A stretch of 64,000 nt of DNA, from positions 1-64,000 of the forward strand of contig JADCRZ010000004.1 of assembly GCA_015069695.1 (NCBI GenBank), read 5' to 3'. This document shows positions 39,661-46,204 of this stretch, in pieces (positions within the stretch are counted from its first letter, which is position 1; each line of letters starts with the position of its first letter). Below the pieces are notes generated by a model. It was not told where the DNA came from, did not search any database, and worked only from the letters and a program-made list of their open reading frames with translations. Source of the DNA: Williamsia sp. GTDB taxonomy: Bacteria > Bacteroidota > Bacteroidia > Chitinophagales > Chitinophagaceae. Made by a program: the position numbers and the translations under genes.

Positions 39661-41013
39661 ATGAACAGCAATATCACCACCACGCGCAAACCGGTTCTCA
39701 ACGGAGAGCGCAAGAAATTTTTATTCGCCACGTTTGCAGCCGATGGTCACTTCCATCCCCTCACAAACCTGGCCACCTACCTGGCTTCGCTCGGCCATGA
39801 TGTTCGCTGGTATACATCCAACCTGTATGCCCCCAAGCTGAAAAAATTACAGATCCCGCATTATCCTTTTGTAAAAGCCCTGGATATAAACGGCACCAAC
39901 CTGGAAAGCTTGTTCCCGGAGCGCAAAGCCATCAAAGGCAAAATAGACAAACTGACCTTCGACATCATCAATGTTTTTATCCTCCGCGGCCCGGAGTACT
40001 ACGATGACATCCTGAACATCCAAAAAGAATTCAAGTTCGACCTGATGGTGTGCGACTGCGCTTTCACCGGCCTGCCCTTTGTGACCGACCTGATGAAAAT
40101 ACCCGTTGTGTCCATTGGCGTATTTCCCCTCACAGAATCATCCAAAGACCTGGCACCGAATGGCTTTGGCATGACACCTTCTTATACATTCGGCGGCAAG
40201 ATCAAACAAAACCTGCTGCGCTTTATGTCAGACAAGATCGTGTTCCGCAAACCGAACCAGGCATTGGCCAAACTCATGAAAGAATATGGCATCTCTTACA
40301 ACAACGAAACTGTTTTTGACTTCCTGGTAAAAAAATCAACCCTGCTTTTACAAAGCGGTACGCCCAACTTTGAATACAAAAGGAGCGATATGGGCGCCAA
40401 TATCCGCTTCATCGGCGCGCTGCTGCCACATACGGCCCTGTCTAACCAGCAACCCTGGTTTGATGAGCGGCTGAACCGGTACGAGAAGATCGTCCTGATC
40501 ACACAAGGAACCGTTGAAAAAGATGTAGAAAAACTGGTGGTGCCCACCCTGGAAGCCTTCAAGGGCACAGACACCCTGGTGGTAGCCACAACCGGTGGTT
40601 CACAAACAGGAGAACTGCGGGAAAGATTTCCGCAGTCGAATATCATCATCGAAGACTTTATTCCTTTTGCCGATGTAATGCCTTATGCCGATGTATACAT
40701 TACCAATGGCGGCTATGGTGGTGTTATGCTGAGCATCCAGAACGGACTGCCCATGGTGGTAGCCGGGGTACACGAAGGAAAGAACGAGATCAACGCGCGG
40801 ATCGGTTATTTCAAGCTGGGCGTGAACCTGAAAACCGAACTGCCTGCACCCCAGCAGATCAGGGCCGGCGTAGAAGAAGTGATCCGCAACGGGATTTACA
40901 GGGAGCAGGTGGCCCTTTTGGCGGAAGATTTCAGCAACTACGACCCTGCCTCTCTCGCAGCCCATCACATTGAAGAAACCCTTAAACAGAAGGCCATTTT
41001 ACAGATTAATTGA
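39661..41013 (+). CDS. GT1-type glycosyltransferase (MGT-like)
   Basis: A 450-residue GT-B glycosyltransferase that moves a sugar from a nucleotide donor to a small hydrophobic or phenolic acceptor. The N-terminal LFATFAADGHFHPLTNLATYL carries the likely base His of the G.H..P motif. The C-terminal donor domain has VLITQGTVEKDVEKLVVPTL, VEDFIPFADVMPYADVYITNGGYGG and NGLPMVVAGVHEGKNEINARI, matching the macrolide/UDP-glycosyltransferase signature (each shown in parts). Acceptor unknown; no terpene or polyketide genes are adjacent. Confidence 0.88.
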   Translation: MNSNITTTRKPVLNGERKKFLFATFAADGHFHPLTNLATYLASLGHDVRWYTSNLYAPKLKKLQIPHYPFVKALDINGTNLESLFPERKAIKGKIDKLTFDIINVFILRGPEYYDDILNIQKEFKFDLMVCDCAFTGLPFVTDLMKIPVVSIGVFPLTESSKDLAPNGFGMTPSYTFGGKIKQNLLRFMSDKIVFRKPNQALAKLMKEYGISYNNETVFDFLVKKSTLLLQSGTPNFEYKRSDMGANIRFIGALLPHTALSNQQPWFDERLNRYEKIVLITQGTVEKDVEKLVVPTLEAFKGTDTLVVATTGGSQTGELRERFPQSNIIIEDFIPFADVMPYADVYITNGGYGGVMLSIQNGLPMVVAGVHEGKNEINARIGYFKLGVNLKTELPAPQQIRAGVEEVIRNGIYREQVALLAEDFSNYDPASLAAHHIEETLKQKAILQIN

Positions 41014-41076: not shown

Positions 41077-44000
41077 TTGGCGGGACGCTGTTTATTTTTA
41101 CTGTTGTGGTGCATATTACCGGTTTACTTTGTTTGTGCCCAGCAAACAAAACAGTATTCATTCAGGCATTTCAGCACCATGGAAGGGCTGGCTGCCAATG
41201 ATGTACGGTGCACCATACAGGATGGGGAGGGATTTATCTGGGTTGCTACCTCCGATGGTTTACAACGCTTTGACGGAACCCGTTTTATCACTTTCCGCCA
41301 CAGCAGCCTGAATCCCTCGTCCCTGCCTTCCAACGACATATTACAACTGCTGCTCGACAATCAAAAAAGATTGTGGGTGCTGTTGAGCAGCGGCCGGATC
41401 GGAATTTTTGATACGCACGGGTTTTCTTTTAAAGAAGCACGCGTGTCTGTCTCGGATAAAAAATACCTCGGAGCTGACAAGGAACTGTTTCGCGGACTCA
41501 ATGGCTCCCCCATTTACATGCTGAAGGGAATAACCGCCCTGCTTTACAATGAGCGCATCCATCAATTTATCCCGGCTGGTCAGGTCTTGCCTGCACCACC
41601 AGGCTGGAAAGTATATGTGATCACCCCGGACCGGCTGACAAAAAAATACTGGATAGGCGGCGACTCAGGAATCGCCGTTTTTAACCCTGCCAACAGGACG
41701 CTCAGCTATGCAGGCCATAACAGCCAGCATGAACCGCTGATTGAACAATATGGTACACAGTCAAATGTGTACCATATTTTTATTGATAGCCAGCGCCGGT
41801 TCTGGTTTGAAAAATGGCCCTCCAACTATGGCAATGCCCTGCTGACCTGTTTCAACCTGCAAACCAGGCAAACCATCCTGCATGATTATACCCTCAATGC
41901 CAAGCTCAACCAGTATCACGAGCTGCGCAACCTGCTCGAACAAAAAGATGGTTCTGTCTGGATCAGAGGGGCGCAGGTTTTTGGTCAGTTCAATGAAGCA
42001 AAAAAGGATTTTATCCTGGTCAACAACGGATTTGTAAACGACCAGAGCATTGCCTATGAAGTGGTGAACAACCTCCTGGAAGACCGGGAGCAAAATCTCT
42101 GGGTATCAACCAGCAACAACGGACTGTTCTTGTTCAATCCTTCCCACCAGCTTTTTACCGTGGTAAAACACATGGACTGGGTAAGGAACACAACCGGCAA
42201 CGGGGCCGTTATGTCTTTTGCCCATGCCAACAACGGCGATATGCTGACCGGCGCCTGGAGCAACGGCCTGTTCCGGTACGACAGCCTGTTTGACCCCGTT
42301 CCGCTCCGGATCAACGGCATCGCAGAAAAAAATTTTTATTCTGTCTGGAGCATGTGCCGCTCCGGAGACAACCGGACGATCTGGCTTTCTATGCAACCGG
42401 GCATAGGGAAATGGGACCAGCTCACCAACCAGCTGACCCTCTACAACCCGCCCTTATTTGAAAACCGGACCATACGCCAGATCCTGGAAGACCGGCGCGG
42501 CAACCTGTGGGTAGGCTTGCAGAACAGGGGTGTATACAGATGGGACAAAACCAAGGCAGCAGGCAACGTTGAACAGGGATTTATAAAAATCCCCCATGTT
42601 CCCAATACAAATATCAACAAGCTGATCGAAGACAAAAACGGTTTTATATGGGTATGCACCCACATAGACGGCATTTACAAGATAGATCCGCTCACCGACA
42701 GCATCGTTGATCATATCCGCGATACAGGCCTCGTATCCAAGCGCCTGCTCGACAATATGTGCATCTCCGTGCTTGAATACAACGACACCCTGATGCTGAT
42801 CGGGGCAGGAGGCCTCAACATCTACAATACAAAAACCCATGTAATAGATCACCTGACCGTGGAAGAAGGACTTCCTTCAGACATTATCAGCAGCATCGAA
42901 AAAGACAACCGGGGCATTGTCTGGATGGGCATGGCGAACGGAATATGCCGTTATGATCTTTGGCGAAAAAAATTGACCTATTACAACAGAAGGGATGGAT
43001 TTATGAACGACAACTTTGTAGTGGCATCTTCTTACCACATGCCCGACGGAAGATTGTTGTTTGGCACCGGTGAGGATGTGGTTGTATTTGACCCGCTCAA
43101 AGTAAGCGCCTCCACTCCCCCTCCGGACGCCCGGATCACGGATATAAAACTCGTAGACCAATCGCTTCCGCTGGATTCCGTGTTCAGGCTAAAACGGATC
43201 GAACTGCCTTACGATCAAAACTCGCTGGTTATCCAGTTTGCCGGACTGACCTACCAGAACAAGAACAAGATCAGCTATTATTACATGCTGGAAGGACTTG
43301 ACAAGGAATGGAAAAAAGCGGATGGACTGAACCAGGCTTCTTACAGCTATTTACCGGCGCGGAATTACCTGTTCAAAGTAAAGATAGAAACAGGCGAAGG
43401 CGTGGAGAGCCAGCACGTGACCACCGTAAAAATAAGGATCAAGCCGCCTTTCTGGCGTACCTGGTGGTTTGTAAGCCTGCTTGCCCTTGCAGCCCTGGGC
43501 TTGTTCCTTTACATGGACTGGCTGCGCCTGCAACGCATAAAGACCACCATACGGATGCGCAATAAAATTGCTTCCAATTTTACCAAAGACATGGGCTCCA
43601 CGCTGGGAACCATCAATGTGCTGAGCGAGATGGCCAAGGTAAAAGCTGATACAGATCCTGCCCGAACCAAAGAATACGTATCGCAGATCAGCGACAACAG
43701 CAGCCGCATGATGGAGGTCATGGACGACATGATCTGGAGCATCAAACCGGAAAACGACAGCCTGGAACACGTAATAGAAAAAATGAACCATTTTGCAGCG
43801 GAGCTCCATTCGAAATATGACGTTGAAATTCATTTCAAGTTGGGCGAGAACGTGCAGGAAATCAAGCTGCGCATGGACCAGCGGCACGAGCTGTATGCCC
43901 TCTTTAAAGAAGCCATCACCAATGCAGCCAAGCATTCACAAACACGGTATATAGATGTGGGTATAGATTGTCACAAGTCCAGACTCCGGTTGCGCGTGCA

Positions 44001-44154
44001 GGATGAAGGCAAAGGCTTCGATATGGAAGCGGTCAGCTTTGGCAGGGGACTGAACGATATGCAGAAAAAAGCCTCTTCCCTGCAGGCAAAGCTGCGTATC
44101 CAGTCGGAGATCAATACGGGCACCATTGTTCAGATCGAAATGCCGTTGGGCTAG
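41077..44154 (+). CDS. Two-component-propeller kinase with the H-box His replaced by Thr
   Basis: A 1025-residue sensor: signal peptide (LLLWCILPVYFVCA), about fourteen propeller repeats such as GEGFIWVATSDGLQRFDG and RRGNLWVGLQNRGVYRWD to about residue 680, a Y_Y_Y domain, one membrane helix (about 792-810), then a kinase module. The usual LHDDIGS reads FTKDMGS: residue 836 is Thr (ACC, 43582-43584), not His. The ATPase part is intact (FKEAITNAAKH, QDEGKGFD). The start is a TTG: a stop codon lies 18 nt upstream, and the first ATG would delete the signal peptide. It may be a pseudokinase that works through the facing LytS/LytTR pair, which is inference. Confidence 0.9.
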   Translation: MAGRCLFLLLWCILPVYFVCAQQTKQYSFRHFSTMEGLAANDVRCTIQDGEGFIWVATSDGLQRFDGTRFITFRHSSLNPSSLPSNDILQLLLDNQKRLWVLLSSGRIGIFDTHGFSFKEARVSVSDKKYLGADKELFRGLNGSPIYMLKGITALLYNERIHQFIPAGQVLPAPPGWKVYVITPDRLTKKYWIGGDSGIAVFNPANRTLSYAGHNSQHEPLIEQYGTQSNVYHIFIDSQRRFWFEKWPSNYGNALLTCFNLQTRQTILHDYTLNAKLNQYHELRNLLEQKDGSVWIRGAQVFGQFNEAKKDFILVNNGFVNDQSIAYEVVNNLLEDREQNLWVSTSNNGLFLFNPSHQLFTVVKHMDWVRNTTGNGAVMSFAHANNGDMLTGAWSNGLFRYDSLFDPVPLRINGIAEKNFYSVWSMCRSGDNRTIWLSMQPGIGKWDQLTNQLTLYNPPLFENRTIRQILEDRRGNLWVGLQNRGVYRWDKTKAAGNVEQGFIKIPHVPNTNINKLIEDKNGFIWVCTHIDGIYKIDPLTDSIVDHIRDTGLVSKRLLDNMCISVLEYNDTLMLIGAGGLNIYNTKTHVIDHLTVEEGLPSDIISSIEKDNRGIVWMGMANGICRYDLWRKKLTYYNRRDGFMNDNFVVASSYHMPDGRLLFGTGEDVVVFDPLKVSASTPPPDARITDIKLVDQSLPLDSVFRLKRIELPYDQNSLVIQFAGLTYQNKNKISYYYMLEGLDKEWKKADGLNQASYSYLPARNYLFKVKIETGEGVESQHVTTVKIRIKPPFWRTWWFVSLLALAALGLFLYMDWLRLQRIKTTIRMRNKIASNFTKDMGSTLGTINVLSEMAKVKADTDPARTKEYVSQISDNSSRMMEVMDDMIWSIKPENDSLEHVIEKMNHFAAELHSKYDVEIHFKLGENVQEIKLRMDQRHELYALFKEAITNAAKHSQTRYIDVGIDCHKSRLRLRVQDEGKGFDMEAVSFGRGLNDMQKKASSLQAKLRIQSEINTGTIVQIEMPLG

Positions 44155-44169
44155 TTGATTGCCCCTCCC

Positions 44170-44949
44170 CTATTTGCCCATCCACTTTTTAAAATCCGTC
44201 ACTTTTTCCCGGCTTACCAGGGCTTCCTTGTCTACGGCAGGTTTCACCTGCAGCAGCAGGCGGTTGCCAAAATATTCATGGATCTGGTCAACACTTTCTA
44301 TTGAAACATAAAAGGCCCGGCTGATGCGGAAATACTTGGCAGGATCGAGCATTTCTTCCAGCTCGTCCATGGTATAATCCACAATAAATTTCCGGTTGTC
44401 GGTTGTTTTGAAAAAGTTGAGCCGTCCATCGCTGTAGAAATACGCGATCTCGTCAACCTCAATGCTGATCAGCTTTTGCGCGTGCTTTACAAGAAAGCGC
44501 TTGCGGTATTCTTTGGGCTGCAGCTTCTGACGCAACTCCTTTACCAGGCTGTCCACGTTCATAGCCGAAGAGCTTTCTTTGTTGCCGTACATGGACTGCA
44601 TGCTCTTGTACTTCTGCAGGGCAGCCCGCAGGTCTTCACTCTGGATGGGTTTCAGCAGGTAGTCGATGCTGTTGACCTTGAAGGCTTTCAGGGCAAATTC
44701 ATCGTAGGAGGTGGTGAAGATGACCGAGCTTTTTACTTCGGTCTTTTCAAAAATCTCAAAGCTCTGGCCATCGGCCAGCTCAATGTCCATCAGGATCAGA
44801 TCAGGTGTAGGATTGCTTTGGAGCCAGCTGACCGATGAGCGTATGCTGTCTGTAACACCCACCACGTCGGCCGAAGGATCGACGCCTTCCAGGGTTTTGC
44901 GCAGCTTTTTTACTGCCAGCTCTTCATCTTCCACAATAAGAACTTTCAT
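44170..44949 (-). CDS. LytTR-family response regulator
   Basis: A 259-residue regulator with a receiver domain (VLIVEDEELAVKKL, phospho-accepting D55 in LILMDIELADG) and a C-terminal LytTR DNA-binding domain (KRFLVKHAQKLISIEVDEIAYF and FRISRAFYVSIESVDQI in parts). The start at 44949 (MKVLIVEDEE) is chosen over a longer frame from 44979. It is downstream of the LytS-type kinase in one operon, 88 nt apart, and ends 15 nt from the facing propeller kinase gene. Confidence 0.92.
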   Translation of the reverse strand: MKVLIVEDEELAVKKLRKTLEGVDPSADVVGVTDSIRSSVSWLQSNPTPDLILMDIELADGQSFEIFEKTEVKSSVIFTTSYDEFALKAFKVNSIDYLLKPIQSEDLRAALQKYKSMQSMYGNKESSSAMNVDSLVKELRQKLQPKEYRKRFLVKHAQKLISIEVDEIAYFYSDGRLNFFKTTDNRKFIVDYTMDELEEMLDPAKYFRISRAFYVSIESVDQIHEYFGNRLLLQVKPAVDKEALVSREKVTDFKKWMGK

Positions 44950-45037
44950 AATCAGTTGTTGTTGTTTTAGTATAAACAAGCCATAAACAGCAAATGCAAA
45001 TTAAGGCATGAAGCCTTACCGTACTGCATACTGCTGA

Positions 45038-46120
45038 TCAGGTTACCGGTTGGGAGGTGATTTCTTTTGCGGGCAGCAGCGGTATCACAACGAGAAACTC
45101 ACGTCCGTCATCGTTTACCATAATTTCTTCCTGGTTCATGAGGCGGTATTTATTGATGATATTGCTCAGCCCGACTTTGTTGCTGGATACATTGCGCACC
45201 TTGCGCTGCAGGTTGTTGCATACGATCAGTTTCCGGCTGTTGGTGGTCATGATCATGATCTTGAGCGGACTTTCCTTGAGCATCATATTGTGCTTCACGG
45301 CATTTTCTATCAGCATTTGCAGCGTGAGGGGCGGCAGCTGGCACAGCATATAATGCGGGTCTATATTGGTTTCCAGCTGCAAGCTTTCGCCATAGCGGGT
45401 TTTGAGCAAGTGAAAATAAGAACTGACAAACTGCATCTCTGCTTCCAGGGTTACCAGTCCGTCTTCGTTGTTGCGCAGCAGGTAGCGGTATACCTTGCTC
45501 ATCTCATCCACAAACTTTTCGGCCCGTTCCGGCTCATCTGAAATCAGGGAAGAAAGAGAATTGAGGCTGTTAAAAAGAAAGTGTGGGTTTACTTGTCCCT
45601 TTAATCCTTCCAGCTGGCTTTGCAGGTTTACTTTTTTGAGCTGCTCCGCTTCATCGGCCAGCTCGCGCCATTTTTCGTAAAAGGCAGCCCCTTCATTGGC
45701 ACTGGTTGCCAGCAAAAGGAGGATCACACTAACGGCCATTACCAGCGAGTAATCTTTCAGGTTGATCTCGTAATTAAGATAGTTGGCGTAATCATAGCCC
45801 CAGAATAGCAGGGTAATACCGGCAATGGTGATGAGGATATAGGAAAGCACGCTCAAGCCGATCCTGCGGAATGTGTTCCTGTATTTGGGAAACCGGTTTA
45901 AAAAGATAGAAGCCATCATGCCGCACAACAGGTAAACAGTAAAAAGCAGGATGAGAACAGGAAGGGTAGCCTGCAGAAAAAACACAAAGCTGCCGAAGTA
46001 CCGTATACCAAACATGACATAGCTGATCCACACGGCAAAAGGCGGAATGATCATCATCATGATGATCCACTCCTTTTTTGTGTAATCAAACGGCTTGATA
46101 TGTCCGGCTATACTGATCAT
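45038..46120 (-). CDS. LytS-type sensor histidine kinase
   Basis: A 360-residue membrane kinase. Four or five hydrophobic segments fill residues 20-160. A coiled linker (KWRELADEAEQLKKVNLQSQL) precedes the His_kinase domain LKGQVNPHFLFNSLNSLSSLI, where the His is phosphorylated, and the HATPase (LTLQMLIENAVKHNM, KVGLSNI). The Met at 46120 (MISIAGHIKPFDYTKKEW) is preferred to the frame start at 46165. With the following LytTR gene it forms a complete two-component system. Confidence 0.9.
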   Translation of the reverse strand: MISIAGHIKPFDYTKKEWIIMMMIIPPFAVWISYVMFGIRYFGSFVFFLQATLPVLILLFTVYLLCGMMASIFLNRFPKYRNTFRRIGLSVLSYILITIAGITLLFWGYDYANYLNYEINLKDYSLVMAVSVILLLLATSANEGAAFYEKWRELADEAEQLKKVNLQSQLEGLKGQVNPHFLFNSLNSLSSLISDEPERAEKFVDEMSKVYRYLLRNNEDGLVTLEAEMQFVSSYFHLLKTRYGESLQLETNIDPHYMLCQLPPLTLQMLIENAVKHNMMLKESPLKIMIMTTNSRKLIVCNNLQRKVRNVSSNKVGLSNIINKYRLMNQEEIMVNDDGREFLVVIPLLPAKEITSQPVT

Positions 46121-46204
46121 CTTAAACCGCCAAAGTAATATAATATATAGCATGGTTGGTAGCAAAACCGGGATGAACTGTAGTTAAGAGTGAATGAAGT
46201 GTCC

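Follow-up and report, generated by a model that had tools for sequence, protein, structure and literature searches.

The window, a 64,000-nt stretch of DNA, encodes a large sensor protein whose transmitter has Thr in place of the phosphoacceptor His and lies tail to tail with the genes of a LytS/LytTR pair. Is this Thr an accident of one sequence, or does it mark a protein that works through the neighbouring two-component system? The features concerned are as follows; codon 836 is numbered from the listed TTG start, and "Thr type" denotes the window protein and its Thr-carrying homologues.

41077-44154, + strand: propeller sensor protein, 1025 aa (open reading frame listing, TTG start as listed)
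43534-44151, + strand: cytoplasmic transmitter module, residues 820-1025 (trees, identity scan, fold model)
43549-43620, + strand: H-box segment IRMRNKIASNFTKDMGSTLGTINV, residues 825-848 (sequence)
43582-43584, + strand: codon 836, ACC, Thr at the phosphoacceptor position (sequence, alignments)
43906-43938, + strand: N-box KEAITNAAKHS, residues 944-954; E945, N949 and H953 invariant in the Thr type (alignment)
44002-44022, + strand: G1 box DEGKGFD, residues 976-982; D976, G978 and G980 invariant in the Thr type (alignment)
44041-44052, + strand: G2 box GRGL, residues 989-992; R990 and G991 invariant in the Thr type (alignment)
44170-44979, - strand: LytTR response regulator, convergent with the propeller gene; receiver residues intact by eye, likely start ATG 44949
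45038-46165, - strand: LytS-type sensor kinase (PF06580), His of NPHFLFN present; upstream of LytTR on the same strand

The propeller protein and its homologues

The protein consists, in order, of Reg_prop repeats, a Y_Y_Y domain, a single transmembrane segment, HisKA_3-like helices and HATPase_c. Pfam matches above cut-off were obtained for Reg_prop (six stretches), Y_Y_Y (residues 726-789) and HATPase_c (residues 937-1024). The protein has the layout of a Bacteroidota propeller sensor, i.e., Reg_prop and Y_Y_Y before one transmembrane segment; this segment (approximately residues 798-820) and the periplasmic side were read by eye from the sequence. The H-box around Thr836 reads KIASNFTKDMGS. 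In a phmmer alignment with PDB sequences, T836 fell on the mutated phosphoacceptor residue 188 of DesK (chain 3gie, H188E). The HisKA_3 profile scored 13.9 bits with the whole protein and 17.7 bits with the transmitter alone, both below the cut-off of 24, and its best stretch in the Pfam search began at residue 839, beyond the H-box. The AlphaFold2 model of residues 820-1025 (mean pLDDT 88.9) was DesK/VraS-like, with T836 (model residue 17) inside the first helix (model residues 2-37). The PDB structure that matched the model best was that of DesK in its H188V form, bound to an ATP analogue (TM 0.54); the VraS ATP domain matched the model with TM 0.84 by target length and 1.9 Å. Of the features that define a HisKA_3 kinase of the DesK/NarX class, DHp helices and HATPase_c with N, G1 and G2 boxes were present; a phosphoacceptor His in the H-box was not, and Thr took its place in 26/26 proteins of the type.

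We searched 394 genomes from 101 genera of the bacterial family, which we take to be Chitinophagaceae judging from named relatives, at E≤1e-55 with at most six candidates scored per genome; 97 genomes gave a match. The loci were retrieved in 120 stretches, to which 80 loci of named genomes were added, and the resulting 212 hits were reduced to 201 distinct C-termini. Besides the window protein, these 201 homologues had His at column 836 in 175 cases, Thr in 25 and Tyr in one. Thr carriers were found in 24 of the 394 family genomes and 9 of the 101 genera; Terrimonas pollutisoli (L031, a named genome) also carries the Thr type and is counted in addition to this sample. An order-level sample of 298 genomes searched at E≤1e-40 gave a single match outside the family (G497, locus L316), with an ordinary DLHDD His box. 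The window's own genome contains three paralogues with 32-36% identity in the transmitter region, all with His.

A private mutation or sequencing error at codon 836 was ruled out: because Thr is present in 25 further homologues, which form one Thr clade in the transmitter tree (below), the residue reflects neither chance nor error. T836, D838, E945, N949, H953, D976, G978, G980, R990 and G991 were each conserved in 25/25 Thr rows of the tree alignment. The residue following Thr varied among these rows (E in 17, D in 4, K in 3, R in 1); the four rows with K or R are the window protein, L140 and both copies in L141. In all, 44 of 235 transmitter columns were invariant in the Thr set. We looked for a substitute conserved His in the DHp segment of the Thr-row consensus, and found none common to all Thr rows; the sole His that they share is His953 of the N-box. 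Ordinary His autophosphorylation therefore looks impossible, and the Thr-type protein has most likely lost this reaction while keeping the residues of its ATP site, although its lack of kinase activity is inferred from sequence. It fits the description of a transmitter fold without an essential catalytic residue, conserved in orthologues, i.e., the DivL/RocA kind. The ATP domain showed only weak similarity to SpoIIAB/RsbW profiles (E 0.0005-0.002, far below cut-offs).

The original prediction, made from the window alone, had claimed Thr encoded by ACC at codon 836 in place of the H-box His, intact ATP-binding motifs, and 15 nt between the facing gene ends. All three claims held: the first was confirmed by the sequence, the PDB alignment and the 201 homologues; the N, G1 and G2 boxes are complete; and the propeller gene ends at 44154 and the LytTR gene at 44170, tail to tail. 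The finding named in advance as fatal, that orthologues mostly have His and the Thr is private, did not materialize, as Thr occurs in 26/26 proteins of the orthologous transmitter type. The claim that the protein cannot autophosphorylate normally is supported by the absence of a shared DHp His, with inactivity itself still an inference.

Transmitter types and the ancestry of the two protein halves

Six positions (836, N949, D976, G978, G980 and G991) were read by pairwise alignment in the 211 distinct homologues, of 217, that cover all of them. His with a complete ATP site was found in 131, His with a broken site in 54, Thr with a complete site in 26, and Thr with a broken site in none. Three transmitter types are relevant here. 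The Thr type combined Thr836 with a complete ATP site in 26/26 distinct homologues. Its sister, the NLH type, had His in 33 of 34 rows and Tyr in one (L047), retained N949 in only 5/34 rows, and had broken G1/G2 boxes in most rows; among NLH propellers nearest a LytTR gene, the ATP site was broken in 42, complete in none and unreadable in 4. The DLHDDMG type, comprising ordinary relatives, had both His and ATP site complete in 56/56. Since the site is broken in the NLH type and the His is lost in the Thr type, the two LytTR-linked types have lost opposite halves of the autokinase reaction. This mirror-image loss is shown as a set of sequence features. The row with Tyr (L047 7001-7642, Pollutibacter soli) resembles DivL at the phosphoacceptor position and lies inside the NLH clade; no LytTR gene was present in its fetched stretch.

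Quick trees were calculated (LG+G4, SH-aLRT supports only). His rows were included only at ≥190 bits, open reading frames <700 aa, such as L148, were omitted, as was every other DLHDDMG row, and 11 long-branch or outgroup rows were taken out of the sensor and transmitter trees. In the transmitter tree, from which the H-box columns (residues 826-846) were left out, the Thr rows formed one clade (support 92), the NLH/Y rows were its sister (98), and both lay within a 59-row clade (100). In the sensor-half tree the Thr and NLH/Y rows were interleaved: the Thr label required 8 changes, 7 of them forced by starred branches, vs 1 change on the transmitter tree, 1 on the LytS tree, and 2 (1 forced) on the LytTR tree. 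A full-length tree scattered the Thr rows, and the split between sensor and transmitter explained the scatter.

Identity scans located the boundary. For 80-residue windows up to residue 780, pairs of the same type barely differed from mixed pairs (AUC 0.43-0.69); from residue 781 on, same-type pairs were much more alike (AUC 0.85-1.00); and the stretch 741-820 was intermediate (AUC 0.64-0.72). Ancestry thus switches between the two halves at the transmembrane segment, at approximately residues 780-820. The interleaved sensor tree and the AUC step at the membrane together indicate that sensors and transmitters have repeatedly recombined. Tandem propeller copies are present in L141, L215, L219, L221 and L241, and recombination may often have taken place among such copies. 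In L141 the transmitters of the two Thr copies are sisters but their sensors are distant, and the tandem copies in L219 show the same pattern; this suggests gene conversion of the transmitter. The tandem copies in L215 and L221 each pair with their counterpart in the other genome.

The LytS/LytTR neighbours

A convergent LytTR gene accompanied by LytS was present at 25/25 Thr loci. At 24 of these it lay within 300 nt, with 14-288 nt between open frames; at the remaining locus (L272) it was 11 kb off. When fetched stretches were screened for a convergent LytTR of ≥60% identity, one was found for 24/25 Thr rows and 32/42 NLH/Y rows, and for 0/56 DLHDDMG rows and 0/48 other ordinary His rows. This count skips rows <150 bits, and L066, L067 and L083 (ordinary DQIG/DEFG boxes) were excluded from the 42 NLH/Y rows. 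The 25th Thr row, without LytTR in its stretch, is L179, from the same genome as L272. The ten NLH/Y rows without one are L212, L231, L215 (twice), L221 (twice), L228, L258, L259 and L047; several lie on short contigs. Some DLHDDMG stretches are short downstream (e.g., L182, L192, L207), and one DLHDDMG row, L192, has a LytTR of 29% identity upstream.

Searching from the regulator side, we collected LytTR loci at ≥65% identity over 200 aa; 95 loci were reduced to 88 after identical ones were dropped. The LytTR proteins were 66-83% identical to that of the window throughout. A LytTR orthologue was found in 52/52 genomes with a Thr- or NLH-type propeller at the E≤1e-55 cut, vs 33 of the 342 remaining genomes; in 19 of those 33, an NLH propeller that had escaped the first search does lie at the operon (8 + 11). 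The Fisher test of co-occurrence (p 4e-51) includes the first 8 missed propellers; the 52/52 figure includes none.

The number and clade of LytS followed the transmitter type. The Thr type occurred with a single LytS of one clade at 25/25 loci (60-70% identical to the window LytS), and the NLH type with two LytS paralogues at 44/44 complete loci; 2 further loci were cut or broken. The LytS tree has three clades (Thr-LytS, 24 sequences; S1, 28; S2, 28) with supports of 98-100. No mismatch between transmitter type and LytS type was found in 69 complete loci. The match holds where the operon is distant, i.e., ~130 kb (G141) and ~150 kb (G059) from an NLH propeller gene with two LytS, and 11 kb (G376) from a Thr propeller gene with one. 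Both systems are present in genomes G084 and G160, where each has a LytTR and a LytS set of its own. At six NLH loci (L329, L330, L331, L333, L266, L276) the propeller gene is upstream of, and on the same strand as, LytS2-LytS1-LytTR, and in three of them (L329, L330 and L331) the open frame of the propeller gene overlaps that of LytS2.

The operon also occurs without a propeller gene in view, at 17 of the 88 distinct loci, of which 16 have two LytS genes and 1 has a single one. Two of the 17 (L262, L317) end at a contig end on the propeller's side, and L273-L275 come from genomes with a propeller gene elsewhere; at up to 12 loci, it is conceivable that LytS does without a propeller protein. 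A crude regular-expression screen for NarL/LuxR regulators near the propeller gene gave no hit in 25 Thr or 34 NLH/Y rows, 2 hits in 53 DLHDDMG rows and 4 in 11 other rows, and proves little.

The window's own genome has a second LytTR gene (G000:C201:99459-101861; 61% identical) with two LytS genes upstream. On the other side of the propeller gene, a UDPGT/EryCIII-like glycosyltransferase gene (39661-41013, + strand) adjoins its 5' end on the same strand. A glycosyltransferase gene is found on the opposite strand at L142, L144, L166, L168, L171, L173, L179, L031 (Thr-type) and L238; it may possibly belong to the regulon.

The LytS His was conserved in all three clades (24/24 Thr-LytS, 28/28 S1, 28/28 S2). 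At the canonical G1 Asp position the LytS rows have Asn, with His, Tyr or Ser in some S2 rows, and PF02518 gave no match to the window LytS. The Thr-type LytS retained the N-box (24/24) and the GL-N motif (23/23 readable). The view of LytS2 as merely a dead protein was softened: the His is present in 28/28 and the N-box E and N in 27/28 and 26/28, but the N-box K-H is lost. A second idea, that a G1 reading NNLQ leaves the window LytS without a functional ATP site, was weakened, as other short LytS proteins of the genome are similar. Of 26 PF06580 loci in that genome (L280-L305), 18 were parsable, L291 and L301 seemingly being one frame shown twice. Read by eye, all ten parsable short LytS proteins were without the canonical Asp-x-Gly G1 box, most short ones keep the G-L/I-x-N G2 motif, and seven longer PF06580 proteins have DNG or DDG. 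One protein of this genome (L300 1189-3171, - strand) joins a Reg_prop/Y_Y_Y sensor directly to a PF06580 transmitter that shares the NNLQ motif of the window LytS.

A putative third component, its rivals and known relatives

Three things are shown: Thr836 and the residues of the ATP site do not vary within the clade; it is the transmitter rather than the sensor half whose inheritance follows one LytS clade; and the gene set is syntenic and co-occurs. On balance, we favour the view that the adjoining LytS/LytTR system has in the propeller protein a dedicated third component, a reading that we consider more likely than not. In this view the propeller and Y_Y_Y domains would sense something outside the cytoplasm, and the His-less transmitter would bind ATP and touch LytS in a mixed dimer or higher complex, setting the amount of phosphate that LytS puts on LytTR. 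Because Thr replaces the phosphoacceptor His, the transmitter probably cannot itself feed phosphate to the regulator. Coupling to LytS/LytTR is shown by genomic evidence only, without interaction data; the contact between transmitter and LytS, the direction of signalling, and a role of bound ATP other than phosphate transfer are inferred. For the use of ATP, our confidence falls from an allosteric clamp, through phosphorylation of LytS in trans, to autophosphorylation of Thr. By analogy with FasB/FasC, the opposite decay in the sister type would fit a mixed complex in which one partner supplies the half that the other has lost.

The original prediction had pointed to the LytS/LytTR operon as the likely partner and had proposed a check of the co-occurrence of the three genes. 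The partner claim is strongly supported by synteny, co-occurrence and exact transmitter-LytS co-inheritance (LytTR in 52/52 carrier genomes, LytTR with LytS at 25/25 Thr loci), without contact data. Its term pseudokinase is still a hypothesis: the transmitter lacks the phosphoacceptor, but contact, kinase inactivity and the sign of regulation are unproven. As the ATP site is under selection, kinase action in trans or on Thr is still conceivable.

The rival that survives best, and remains possible, is a split histidine kinase, in which the ATP domain of the propeller protein would phosphorylate the NPH His of LytS in trans, and LytS would relay the phosphoryl group to LytTR. The same reading reverses the roles in the sister type, with the propeller protein giving the His and LytS1 the ATP site. 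It is supported by the mirror-image decay (Thr type, complete ATP site without His in 26/26; sister type, His with broken site in 42/42 readable), by the LytS His being invariant in three clades, with Asn at the G1 Asp position (replaced by His, Tyr or Ser in part of the S2 rows) and no PF02518 match to the window LytS, and by the published proposal that two kinases, FasB and FasC, share ATP site and His. However, all ten parsable short LytS proteins of the genome lack the canonical G1, and the lack is therefore not specific to this system; the Thr-type LytS retains its N-box and GL-N motif; and the HisKA_3 and PF06580 dimerization domains belong to different families. To our knowledge, no mixed dimer of these two domains has been described.

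A second rival, which we consider unlikely, is that the propeller protein signals elsewhere or is decaying, and that the neighbourhood reflects linked inheritance only. The Thr type has a single origin, the genes adjoin, and LytTR operons without a propeller in view exist. Because there was a single origin of the Thr transmitter and a single one of its LytS, the 25 matching loci represent one evolutionary event followed by inheritance; and because the genes adjoin, linkage alone could keep the pairs together. Against this, ATP-site residues are fixed across nine genera, and the types match even where the operon is far from the propeller gene; the loosely linked G141, G059 and G376 argue against linkage alone. 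The strongest counter is that sensor halves recombine relative to the transmitter, with at least 7 type changes forced on the sensor tree, while transmitter and LytS, at a similar distance, were mismatched in 0/69 complete loci.

The weakest rival makes Thr836 itself the phosphoacceptor of a GHKL autophosphorylation, with phospho-Thr as the signal; the N-box Glu serves as the base in the GHKL Ser kinases SpoIIAB/RsbW, and Glu945 and Asp838 (25/25 each) and an invariant Thr (26/26, when a position that had simply lost its His would have been free to drift to any residue) speak for it, but we consider it very unlikely, as one invariant residue is unremarkable among 44 of 235 invariant columns, the acid after the phosphoacceptor position is replaced by K/R in 4/25 rows, and no route from phospho-Thr to a receiver Asp is known to us.

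Under the third-component reading, the old, conserved design suggests, as an inference we lean towards without being sure of it, that two sensors work as one machine. Half-broken sensor kinases have so far been known singly, e.g., in Caulobacter and streptococci; here two sister lineages have lost opposite halves, and across dozens of genomes each lineage keeps to partner kinases of its own. This offers many ready comparisons for how a stand-alone two-component system acquires a third component, and predicts a partner for a class of large sensor proteins in the family that would otherwise be orphans. If the split kinase were true instead, LytTR would be switched on only when both sensors agree, and two opposite breakages of one ancestral kinase would form a natural experiment on obligate partnership.

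Proteins of this kind are already known, as DivL, RocA and FasC show. In DivL of Caulobacter, Tyr550 replaces the phosphoacceptor His, and the protein is thought to act through CckA. Like the Thr type, DivL has a histidine kinase-like transmitter with another residue at the phosphoacceptor position, and it regulates another kinase. However, crystals show the ATP site of DivL closed, and its binding of an ATP analogue is weak, whereas the ATP-site residues of the Thr type are fully conserved; and DivL has PAS sensor domains, whereas the window protein has a propeller and a HisKA_3-like transmitter beside a LytS/LytTR pair. RocA of Streptococcus, a pseudokinase, is a kinase-like membrane protein that interacts with CovS, a two-component sensor kinase, and needs CovS activities. 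It keeps a dispensable His246 and is without residues of the ATP domain, and thus resembles the sister type with His and no ATP site rather than the Thr type. In the streptococcal FasB/FasC-FasA system, two kinase-like proteins are proposed to form a heterodimer that shares His and ATP site and serves one regulator, with FasC as a proposed pseudokinase. FasA is a LytTR regulator, a term absent from the paper on this system. FasB and FasC have the same layout (six transmembrane segments, DHp, HATPase), whereas the window system joins a HisKA_3-like propeller protein to a PF06580 LytS. The closest ordinary relatives are the DLHDDMG propeller kinases (e.g., paralogue L002 of the window's own genome), which have the same domain order as far as seen; their His and ATP site are intact (56/56), and none has a convergent LytTR (0/56). 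In the part of the open-access literature that was searched, no title or abstract described the Thr type or its coupling to LytS. To that extent, four points are new: the ATP site is conserved although Thr stands at the phosphoacceptor position; a HisKA_3-like transmitter is combined with a propeller; the protein is paired with a LytS that belongs to a different kinase family; and a sister lineage, whose number of LytS proteins differs, has decayed in the opposite way.
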